DNA of 64,000 bases, from assembly GCA_947175195.1 (NCBI GenBank), contig CAMWLQ010000002.1:186001-250000 (forward strand), written 5' to 3'. Below are positions 2,925-8,902 of the stretch, piece by piece. Numbering within the stretch: the first letter of the stretch is position 1; every line of letters begins with the position of its first letter. Origin of the DNA: an uncultured Clostridia bacterium (lineage in GTDB: Bacteria > Bacillota > Clostridia > Christensenellales > Pumilibacteraceae). The position numbers and the translations under genes are program-made. The notes under the pieces are model-generated. The model saw only the letters and a list, made by a program, of their open reading frames with translations, made no database searches and was not told the origin of the DNA.

Positions 2925-5550
<2,626 letters not shown>

Positions 5551-5558
<8 letters not shown>

Positions 5559-7401
5559 TGTCGGACCTCAAAAAATACAGCGAAAACTCGTTTACCGCGT
5601 CGTCGATTCTTATCCCGTCGTCCATTGATATTTGCCCGCCGCTCGAAAGCTTGGCGGATATATCCGAATAGTTAATATCGAAATACTTGAGAAATTTATC
5701 CTTAAACTCCGTCATTCGCTCTACGGGAATGTTCTTTATAAGATCCTTCGTAGTCAAATACAGCAGTATAATTTGGTGTTCCTCGGATATTGGCATATGC
5801 ACGTCTTGCTTGATTATTTCGGTCATGCGCTTACCCTTTTCCAGCATGCGCGCCGTAGACTCGTCAAGATCGGCACCGAACTGCGCGAATACGGCGAGCT
5901 CGCGGTACTGCGACAAATCAAGCCGCAGCTTGCCCGACACCTTTCGCATAGCGGGGCTTTGTGCGCTGCCGCCTACGCGCGACACGGACAAACCAACGTT
6001 TATGGCAGGTCGAATACCCGCATTGAACAAATCGCTTTCCAAAAAGATTTGTCCGTCGGTAATGGAAATAATGTTGGTAGGAATGTATGCCGAAATATCG
6101 CCCGCAAGCGTTTCTACTATAGGCAATGCGGTTATAGATCCGCCGCCCAGCTCGGGACTAAGCCTTGCAGCACGCTCCAACAGCCGCGAGTGCAAATAGA
6201 AAATATCTCCGGGATATGCCTCGCGTCCGGGCGGACGCTTTAACAGCAAGCTCATTGCGCGGTATGCCACGGCGTGCTTACTTAAATCGTCATAAACGAT
6301 TAACACGTCCTTGCCCGCATACATAAATTCTTCGGCAATGGCGCAACCCGCGTAAGGCGCTATATACTGCAACGGCGCGCTGTCCCTTGCCGTTGCGCTG
6401 ACTATAACGGTATAATCCATTGCGCCGTGTTCGGTAAGTGTGCTTACAATATCGGACACTGTGGACGACTTTTGCCCAATTGCAACGTAAACACAAATAA
6501 CCCCTTTGCCCTTTTGATTGAGTATAGTATCAACAGCTATCGATGTTTTGCCCGTTTGCCTATCGCCTATAATAAGCTCACGTTGACCGCGACCGATGGG
6601 AATCATAGAATCCACCGCCAAAATACCGGTCATCATCGGTTTGTTTACTTTATCCCTGTCCTTTATGGCAGGCGCCGCCGTTTCTATCGGTCGGTATTTA
6701 TCGGGAACAAATTCGCCCAAGCCGTCTATCGGTTTGCCGAGCGGATTTACCACTCGTCCCAAAAGCTTTTCGCCCACGGGAACGGACACAATCATACCAG
6801 TGGTCTTAACAACCATGCGCGCCGAAACCTTGTCGTCGTCGTCAAGCACAATCGCACCCACGCTACCCTCCGACAAGCTGAGTACAATCGCCTGCGTGCC
6901 GTTTTCTATCTCCAGCATTTCACCGTACTCGGCGTTAGCAAGTCCGCTGCACATAATAACGCCGTCGCCGCAAAACTCCACGCTGCCTGCGTGACGCACG
7001 TCAAACGACTTTTTGTAATGCGCCACCTTGCCCAAAAGATCTTTATCGGTACGCGTTTTAATGTATTCGGCAGTACCGCCGTCTGGCGTAAACGCCTCGT
7101 CAGTATCGACCGAAATATCTTCTTTAGTCTTTTTATTTTTCCGCCGCTTGGGCGTGGCGGCATCCACGTAGCTGTCGCTATGGCGAAAAACGCTGCCAAT
7201 ATTGTCTATTTGCGAACGCAGCGTGCCGTCGTAGTACTTATCGCCGTCCACAACAAGTATGCCGCCGATAAGCTCTTTATCTATCGTGTATACAAACTCC
7301 GGCGTTTCGTTAGGATGTTTCGCACAAAAGACTTTTTGAATTTTACGCTTTTGTTCTTCCGAAAGCTCAGTCGCCGAAGATACTTGGATGACGACGCTCA
7401 T
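5551..7401 (-). CDS. atpA: F-type ATP synthase alpha subunit with N-terminal delta (OSCP) C-domain fusion
   Basis: Residues ~110-616 are a normal alpha subunit: Walker A GDRQTGKT (279-286), DSMIPIGRGQRELIIGDRQ, the PGREAYPGD loop, and ISVSRVGG with the arginine finger (here LSVSRVGG). Residues 1-70 are different. VIQVSSATELSEEQKRKIQ, then IDKELIGGILVVDGDKYYDG and TLRSQI, match the C-terminal half of subunit delta/AtpH. A charged linker (~70-110, rich in K, D, T) joins the two. At 616 residues it is ~110 longer than ordinary alpha. No separate atpH exists between atpF and atpA, where it normally lies. The gene overlaps atpF by ATGA. The fusion is read directly from sequence; its mechanical meaning is inference. 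Confidence 0.95.
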
Positions 7402-7919
7402 CAGTCATTCTCCCAGTCGGACAAAACCTGCTCGATAAGCGCGTTATTATCGTCTTCCGTAATTTCGCGTTCCAACAGCTTTTGCGCAACTTGCACAGCA
7501 AGATTATTCACGCTGCTGCGGTACTCGCCTTTAAGCTGTTCCATTTGCGTTGCGGATTCCTTTTTCGCCGCGTCGACAATGCTCTTTGCTTGTTCTTGCG
7601 CGTCCGCGATTATAGCGTCCGCTTTTTGCTGCGCAGCCTCCGCCGCGTTAGCCGCAATACGCGCATTTTCAAATTTAAGCTCTTCCGTCTTTTTTTGATA
7701 TTCGGCGTCGCGGATTTCGCTTTCGGCTTTCAGCTTTTCGTTTTCGGCATAAACCTCGTCGAGACTTTCACGCTTTTTCTTGAGCATGTTTTTGACGGGC
7801 TTGTACAGCAATCCTATCATTGCGCCAAGCAGTATCAAAAAATTTACAACATAAAAAAGCATGGACTTCCAGTCGAGCCCGAATACCTCAAGTATGTTAT
7901 CACAAAGCAACTGCGTCAT
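7401..7919 (-). CDS. atpF: F-type ATP synthase subunit b
   Basis: Peripheral-stalk subunit. One membrane segment (about residues 18-40, MLFYVVNFLILLGAMIGLLY) is followed by the conserved KPVKNMLKKKRESL and a long charged coiled coil to the end (172 residues, normal length). The C terminus (LAVQVAQKLLEREITEDDN) is the usual delta-binding end. It has no extra domain, so the missing delta N-domain is not fused here. It overlaps the delta-alpha fusion gene by the ATGA. Confidence 0.95.
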   Translation of the reverse strand: MTQLLCDNILEVFGLDWKSMLFYVVNFLILLGAMIGLLYKPVKNMLKKKRESLDEVYAENEKLKAESEIRDAEYQKKTEELKFENARIAANAAEAAQQKADAIIADAQEQAKSIVDAAKKESATQMEQLKGEYRSSVNNLAVQVAQKLLEREITEDDNNALIEQVLSDWEND

Positions 7920-7926
7920 GGTTATC

Positions 7927-8184
7927 TCACATTACTATAAGCATTATAGCAATCAACAGTCCGTAAATTGCGGTGGTTTCGCAAAACGCCAAACCTATAA
8001 ACAGCGACGAACGTATTTGCTTGGTCGCCTCGGGCTGGCGCGCCATACTTTCCACAGCCTTGCTGGTGGATATACCCATACCGATAGCCGCGCCTACGCA
8101 CGCGATAGAGGCAAGTCCCGCGCCAAGCGCAGCCATGCCTTCCACTCCCAAAAATGCCATAACGGCGGACAAAAATACTTGCAT
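7927..8184 (-). CDS. atpE: F-type ATP synthase subunit c
   Basis: Proteolipid of the rotor ring: two membrane helices joined by the loop SMARQPE. The ion-binding carboxylate is E69 in [14 protein letters not shown]. The start is placed at ATG 8184 because CGGAGG sits 7 bases before it, giving 85 residues; a longer reading frame opens at 8208 but overlaps atpB and has no ribosome binding site. Compared with Na+-type c subunits (Gln in helix 1, then ES/ET in helix 2), the helix 1 position is Met ([11 protein letters not shown]) and helix 2 reads ETT. The ion is therefore probably H+, but this is not certain. Confidence 0.95.
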
Positions 8185-8200
8185 AATTACCTCCGAACAG

Positions 8201-8866
8201 CTATTCAATAGCCTCGTTAATAAAGTTCATAGATAGGAACATAAATATATACGCCTGCATAGCGGCGTGAAACAGCGTAAACAGCGGCTCAAGCACAACC
8301 GGCAAGATATTTCGCAACGCCGTTTGGTACACTATATCCATAATAAGATAACCCGAAAACACGCTGCCAAACAACCTTAACGCCATAGAAAACGGCACTA
8401 CTATATCGGTAACAAGCGGAATGATCGTGGCGTAATGCGTAAGCCGCCTTGTCCGCTTTTTCATAAACCCGATTATGAGTACAGCAAAAAACGTGATTAA
8501 GCCGAGTATAATATTGCAATTCAAATCGGACAGCGGCGAACGCAATCCGAATAGCTCTATAAGTATTCCGAACATTATAAACGCCGAACAACCGAAATAC
8601 ATAGCGCCGACCGCGCCCGAATAGTTTTCCGTCATGTCCTTGGAATTACCGTCAAACATGCCCACCGACCATTCAATAAACATACGGAACGCCGAAGTAT
8701 GCTTTAAGTCATTATTCCACCGCGGAATAAAAAACACACGCACGACAACGGCAAACAATATTAAAGCGACCGTAACAACGATTGTGGAAAACATTGTTAC
8801 GGTAATATCGAAACTGCCTATGCTATATAACACCTTGGGTGCGATTTCGGGAGCGTCTAACTGCAT
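8201..8866 (-). CDS. atpB: F-type ATP synthase subunit a
   Basis: Membrane stator subunit forming the ion half-channels. It has five to six hydrophobic segments and the essential arginine in [16 protein letters not shown]. The reading frame opens at a TTG (8902, 233 residues). ATG 8866 (221 residues) is preferred because TTGCAA/17 bp/TATATT forms a promoter whose start would fall at about 8866-8867, so a start at 8902 would lie upstream of the transcript. AGG lies 7-9 nt before this ATG, so the RBS is weak and the mRNA may be leaderless. It is the first gene of the atp operon. Confidence 0.93.
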
Positions 8867-8873
8867 CTTGCCT

Positions 8874-8902
8874 AATATATCACTTTGATACTGTATTTGC
8901 AA
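8874..8902 (-). promoter_or_regulatory. Promoter of the atp operon
   Basis: TTGCAA (8897-8902), a 17-bp spacer, then TATATT (8874-8879). The predicted start is within a base or two of the atpB ATG at 8866. No other convincing promoter is seen between yraN and atpB, although read-through from yraN is possible. Confidence 0.5.

Follow-up and report, generated by a model that had tools for sequence, protein, structure and literature searches.

A delta C-terminal domain joined to the only ATP synthase alpha subunit found in a Clostridia genome and in many members of the order Christensenellales, and its possible bearing on stalk number

The atp gene cluster in the 64,000-nucleotide stretch of DNA analysed here (the window) encodes an F1 alpha subunit that starts with the C-terminal domain of the delta (OSCP) subunit, and this fused gene is the sole atpA found in the genome. 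The gene encodes 616 aa and lies on the minus strand at 5551..7401. It is composed of the delta C-terminal domain (deltaC; residues 3-69, 7195..7395), a charged linker together with a segment standing in place of the canonical alpha N-terminal helix (residues 70-124, 7030..7194) and a complete F1 alpha (residues 125-607, 5581..7029). All genes of the cluster are on the minus strand, in the order a-c-b-[deltaC-alpha]-gamma-beta-epsilon. Profile searches identified atpB for the a subunit (8201..8902; PF00119, 70 bits), atpE for the c subunit (7927..8208; PF00137, 72 bits), atpF for a b subunit of 172 aa (7401..7919; PF00430, 63.6 bits, cut-off 28), atpG for gamma (4719..5558; PF00231, 199 bits), atpD for beta (3305..4735; TIGR01039, 749 bits) and atpC for an epsilon of 127 aa (2925..3308; PF02823, 51 bits). 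The Pfam match of epsilon is confined to its N-terminal beta-sandwich domain, and the b subunit scored slightly below the cut-off of TIGR01144 (59.3 against 65.5 bits). A second delta was not seen within the cluster by Pfam. The stop codon of atpF and the start codon of the fusion overlap by one base in TGATG, and not in ATGA as had been read in an earlier note on this DNA.

That note had proposed a deltaC-alpha fusion, and its reading frame, strand and coordinates proved right. Residues 3-69 gave a clear match to the Pfam OSCP profile (PF00213) with an E-value of 2.9e-12 and 47.4 bits (cut-off 22.3). Since this match spans profile positions 103-169 of 172, only the C-terminal domain of delta is present and the N-terminal helical domain is missing. 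Downstream of deltaC, Pfam revealed three alpha domains. The alpha part reached 719 bits with TIGR00962 (cut-off 484.45) over profile positions 14-498 of 503, a nearly full-length match that places the protein in the AtpA family. Using phmmer against PDB sequences, residues 9-68 aligned with delta of Bacillus PS3 (6n2y_I, 1.3e-6), and the fused domain aligned with an engineered delta-alpha chain (9jc1_I, 4.7e-6). An AlphaFold model of the 77-residue domain (mean pLDDT 72.6) served for fold search only. Foldseek returned 22 hits at E<=0.001, each to a chain from an ATP synthase entry; query TM-scores were 0.64-0.72 and the rmsd was large (4-8 A). 9jc1 was found at rank 43 of the list. The model of the whole fusion was poor (mean pLDDT 47.6) and was unused.

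We then asked what else of delta and alpha the genome encodes. A search of the window genome with PF00213 at E<=10 gave one other match, of 13.4 bits and below the cut-off, and no complete copy of a separate atpH. A delta N-domain profile, which we built from 13 delta sequences, had no match at E<=1 in this genome, while three of three control genomes with a full delta matched with 110-130 bits. The N-domain, reported as absent from the cluster, was hence found nowhere in the genome by either profile. Since the assembly of this genome (32 contigs) has a completeness of 95.7%, the absence of the N-domain and of atpH is not absolute. TIGR00962 identified a single true atpA, the fused one. Exactly one true alpha was present in 20 of 22 genomes searched with this profile, and it is the fused copy wherever a fusion exists; G267 and G069 have two F operons each, the second with a full delta. 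In the single-contig genomes G087, G066 and G141 from the Christensenella family group, the sole atpA is likewise the fused one. Since the only alpha gene is fused, deltaC is expected, going by the genes present, on each of the three alphas in an F1. The expectation that every alpha would carry it thus holds at the gene level, and from the gene content and the usual three alphas we infer three docking domains per complex. Both features of the architecture described by Ueno et al. (2025) were found: deltaC sits on the alpha N-terminus with the N-domain lost, and neither a separate full delta nor a second alpha was found in this 95.7% complete genome.

The fusion is shared with relatives. Within the genus, 19 of the 20 genomes encode deltaC inside a frame of 616-649 residues; the one exception is G008 (78% complete), where a domain match was absent. 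All 17 fetched genomes of the genus were classed as deltaC-alpha. A profile taken from a related family, run against named genomes, returned five loci, in Christensenella intestinihominis, C. hongkongensis HKU16, Christensenella sp. Marseille-P2438, one Christensenella MAG and one Clostridia MAG; the named Christensenella genomes carry the fusion. NCBI places Christensenella in Christensenellales, the same order as the window. Between the window gene and its relatives in the genus, dN/dS of deltaC was 0.04-0.22 in seven of eight pairs (the eighth was not computable) and that of alpha 0.02-0.10 in all eight, and dN of the linker region exceeded that of the rest of the gene in 8/8 pairs. Since dS is above 1 in most pairs these values are rough; as such they suggest that deltaC evolves under purifying selection.

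To determine the breadth of this architecture we surveyed the order Christensenellales. In the scan, 176 of 396 genomes matched at E<=0.001 and the 220 without a match were left out. Of those matching, 137 were classed, with 28 weaker and 11 unfetched ones left out (counted by eye); 11 further classed genomes came from the genus scan alone (by eye), and G003 and G012 were left out. The 159 classed loci were reduced to 150 operons, from 148 genomes and 25 families, by dropping nine same-genome duplicates of the same class. The operons fall into 30 with a full delta, 39 with a stand-alone C-domain and 81 with a fusion. Among the stand-alone genes 38 are single, with 69-96 residues, and one is doubled (L076). 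The fusions comprise 71 deltaC-alpha, three doubled deltaC-alpha (L061-L063) and seven b'-deltaC-alpha (L064-L070). Stand-alone and fused forms coexist in ten families.

We placed the 150 operons on an alpha-core tree, which was made with a quick method and is unrooted. A single supported branch separates the full-delta operons from the rest. Presence or absence of the N-domain requires one change on this tree and the fused or separate state 13; the deltaC-alpha label alone requires 14, nine of them forced by supported branches. The triple fusions and the doubled fusions require one change each. A full delta is the ancestral state. With one change for the N-domain and 13 for the fusion, the tree indicates that the N-domain was probably lost once, early, in this enzyme lineage, and that fusion or its reversal probably occurred many times.

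The seven b'-deltaC-alpha proteins (family f11) have 736-754 residues and begin with a hydrophobic segment, with a median maximum of 2.32 on the Kyte-Doolittle scale compared to 0.53 in 75 plain fusion loci. In the three that were scanned with ATP-synt_B (cut-off 28), the b-like region scored above the cut-off in L066 (33.9 bits) and below it in L064 (24.1 bits) and L070 (14.9 bits). The deltaC part follows with 40-50 bits, and then alpha. A separate b gene (142-168 aa) adjoins each triple fusion. Six of the seven genomes have one alpha gene, and G267 has a second operon with a full delta. Given the single alpha gene in these six, three b' arms with membrane anchors would be expected on each F1, and for this reason we see in the triple fusion the strongest circumstantial argument for a multi-stalk enzyme.

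Further variants of the stalk subunits were observed. In L061-L063 (family f15) two deltaC copies, which are alike, stand in tandem and are fused to alpha, and in L076 a tandem stands alone. The b subunit of f15 is long (233-249 aa) and by eye appears to have a repeated tip. Long b subunits of 223-261 aa, in which the C-terminal part matches the b profile again, are also found in L120, L131, L132, L142 and L135, where they adjoin single deltaC-alpha fusions. A delta N-domain hidden in the long b was considered and rejected for L132 and L061, which gave ATP-synt_B and no OSCP in Pfam at E<=0.1.

A single peripheral stalk is commonly regarded as typical of bacterial F-type ATP synthases, and the number of stalks together with the c-ring sets how many ions are moved per ATP. 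We consider it probable, by analogy with an engineered enzyme, that dropping the N-domain and welding deltaC to alpha created three docking sites, and with them two or three stalks and more ions per ATP. The delta N-domain, which lies on the F1 threefold axis and permits one peripheral stalk only, would have been dropped, and deltaC, which grips the tip of the b dimer, would have been welded to the alpha N-terminus. Each F1 head would in this way get three identical docking sites, and two or three b2 stalks could bind, each bringing its own a subunit. More ions would then be moved per ATP, ATP synthesis may be possible at a low ion-motive force and, in reverse, more ions could be pumped per ATP at a low gradient. 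One branch of the order has taken a further step, with a membrane-anchored b' joined to deltaC-alpha. The number of stalks and a subunits, the ion/ATP ratio and the physiological role are what we infer from this scheme.

Ueno et al. (2025; PMC12229609) argue that F1 is restricted to a single stalk by the delta N-domain, which occupies the threefold axis. In their Bacillus PS3 enzyme the N-domain was deleted and the C-domain fused to alpha, and up to three stalks and three a subunits are described (PMC12229609). Relative amounts were 2.2 times for a and 1.8 times for b, with about two stalks on average by gel, and the H+/ATP ratio was 5.8 compared to 3.0 (PMC12229609). Stalk numbers of 0, 1, 2 and 3 are given for 15, 51, 26 and 8% of the engineered particles, and the authors suspect a loss of stalks while the grids were prepared (PMC12229609). 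As the architecture in the window is the same, two or three stalks per F1 are most likely here as well.

The fusion might instead merely act as a tether in place of the N-domain, leaving one stalk, one a subunit and two empty docking domains. We regard this as rather unlikely, yet it has several points in its favor. From the genome, an enzyme with one stalk and two docking domains left idle could not be told from a multi-stalk one, and one a gene and one b gene in the operon would have to supply three and six copies. Even in the engineered enzyme, about half of the particles carried one stalk and a further share none, as published. On the other hand, the raised content of a and b and the doubled H+/ATP ratio published for that enzyme speak against a mere tether, and a membrane-anchored b' on each alpha of the triple fusion fits badly with one stalk. 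The constraint on deltaC also speaks against it, although such constraint would be expected with one used site too.

A second way back to an ordinary stoichiometry would be that the fusion protein is cut after translation or that a start codon in the linker yields free alpha. The linker is indeed long and fast-changing in the genus of the window, where about 66 residues separate the domain from the alpha barrel, and an in-frame linker start with a Shine-Dalgarno-like match occurs at least once in 25 of the 81 fused genes of the order. However, such matches are at background, with 32 of 146 starts in linkers compared to 539 of 2409 in the alpha body, and in the window linker no in-frame start codon with a Shine-Dalgarno-like match was found. 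We therefore rejected an internal start in the linker, given that there is no enrichment over the alpha body. Also against a return to free alpha are the spacers of 24 of the 71 deltaC-alpha fusions, in which 30-38 residues lie between deltaC and barrel, barely above the usual 28 ahead of the barrel in alpha alone from full-delta operons. In either case, moreover, the N-domain would still be missing, and altogether we judge this explanation improbable.

Still less probable is a divergent delta N-domain that is encoded elsewhere and completes delta in trans. With the window genome at the completeness given above and in many contigs, such a gene could be missing from the assembly or could have diverged. 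Against this, 14 of 15 genomes with a fused or C-only delta, among them the single-contig relatives G087 and G066, were without any hit to the N-domain profile at E<=1. The fifteenth, G141, gave 13.1 bits (E 0.24), which has to be set against the scores of the full-delta controls. Among L001-L160, the C-only or fused loci were also without an N-domain match at E<=1. In addition, the alpha helix that would bind the N-domain has lost its motif in the order. Of the 30 full-delta operons, 27 have the strict form of this motif, E[IL]S.[IVL]I[KR].QI, and all 30 a loose form; among the 120 others the strict form is missing throughout and the loose one occurs in 7. The loss may be one event on the tree, so that the 120 operons are not independent observations. 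Outside the order, all 13 deltaC-alpha fusions, from 11 other Clostridia families, are without either form. Six N-domain-bearing loci of one genus (L184, L186-L189, L192) fail both forms as well and a stand-alone C-only locus, L183, keeps the loose one; because these seven run against the trend, the motif does not separate the classes cleanly beyond the order. Finally, a sequencing or assembly error, including a frameshift, or a decaying delta gene is a negligible prospect and was rejected, since, even though the source is a multi-contig draft genome, the same long frame recurs across the genus and in named Christensenella, with deltaC apparently under purifying selection.

We next looked at the class Clostridia, where 224 of 393 sampled genomes match OSCP. 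The strongest matches listed are full or nearly full deltas. From the 224 we hand-picked 44 for weak or multiple matches, a choice from which no class-wide frequency follows. In 24 of these 44 a C-domain-only match lies in an uninterrupted frame of 584-655 residues, and in one further genome the match has stops upstream of such a frame. All 13 of the 24 that were fetched are deltaC-alpha. Other arrangements keep the N-domain. In families f44 and f54, which lie outside the order, three of three fetched loci (L166, L167, L169) have a weak N-domain match (17-18 bits), deltaC and alpha in one chain of 679-690 aa. In the genus of G714 (L186-L192, L184) the deltas measure 262-351 aa and consist of a single N-domain with more C-domains behind it; seven of seven genomes have such frames, of 265-353 residues, and an ordinary b adjoins. 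With our own profile, two C-domains were seen in L186 and L187, three in L188-L191 and one in L192. As both groups keep the N-domain, neither fusion nor the gain of extra C-domains strictly depends on losing it, and going by the encoded domains this suggests that stalk-docking domains were added by more than one route. In L181 (G519), gamma and beta share one frame of 535 residues that runs to the end of the locus, which may reflect a genuine fusion or a misassembly.

If the enzyme is indeed multi-stalk, that would matter for our view of ATP synthesis, or the upkeep of a gradient, in fermenting bacteria whose pumps are weak. The window genome gave no match for RnfD/NqrB, H+-PPase or a NuoH-type protein and has one OAD-beta decarboxylase pump; RnfD/NqrB was matched in two of three genus relatives tested. 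Such a set of pumps would fit a weak ion-motive force. The delta classes are not told apart by their pumps, since G274 with a full delta also has RnfD and OAD-beta. The window genome also encodes two more alpha/beta-like ATPase genes at C4:85136-87636 (frames of 459 and 601 aa), which are probably V-type B and A by size and score.

N-type ATPase, the alternate F1F0, is likewise not known to have a normal delta. It was rejected as a candidate, as the window alpha reached 590 bits with TIGR03324, whose cut-off is 750.5, and unlike the N-type enzyme the window alpha carries deltaC. The F1Fo of Chloroflexus aurantiacus reportedly carries a pair of stalks, bound to a delta dimer, together with two a subunits. 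Six entries for it (PDB 9itj and five others) contain 12 delta chains. There, delta is a separate chain of 157 residues and not joined to alpha.

Mycobacterial b-delta fusions contain a full delta. They resemble the window gene in that delta is likewise joined to another stator subunit (NF009961/PRK13428; PDB 7jg5), and both Foldseek and phmmer matched the window domain to mycobacterial b-delta chains as well. In mycobacteria, however, delta is on b and alpha is separate, while in the window b is a separate protein of 172 aa and the N-domain is absent, and the operon is consequently not of the mycobacterial type. The triple fusions have the b-then-delta order of mycobacteria but continue into alpha. 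A delta/b fusion is also spoken of in PMC5709465.

The earlier note knew of no fusion of delta with alpha, but such fusions have been engineered and also noted in nature by Ueno et al. (2025). Acidaminococcus fermentans and the UniProt entries G4Q3K6 and A0A1I2C5T3 are given there as natural fusions without the N-domain, and the authors call a multi-stalk structure highly likely in A. fermentans (PMC12229609). By its published description, the Acidaminococcus fusion has the same architecture as the window gene, fused and with the N-domain missing. The closest likeness is to the engineered PS3 deltaDeltaN-alpha (9jc1), which has no delta N-domain, deltaC on alpha and no separate delta or alpha. 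Unlike it, the window fusion is natural and has lost the alpha N-helix motif. Its genus has a spacer of about 66 residues, as compared to the shorter natural fusions described above. In the published construct the epsilon C-domain was removed, whereas the window encodes an epsilon of 127 aa.

In the main text of Ueno et al. (2025; PMC12229609) the terms Christensenell-, Clostridia and tandem do not occur, and its Results and Discussion do not mention stand-alone C-domain genes or b'-deltaC-alpha. In open-licence PubMed Central we found no earlier report of stand-alone C-domains, tandem forms, the triple fusion or deltas with one N-domain and two or three C-domains. The engineered enzyme of 2025, as published, broke the one-stalk rule, and the same gene design is found here in many members of the order, so that the question of natural multi-stalk enzymes becomes directly testable, cultured Christensenella included. 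This kind of fusion is already known in print and the window gene is a further case; as far as our searches show, the order-wide breadth, the stand-alone intermediates and the triple fusion are new.
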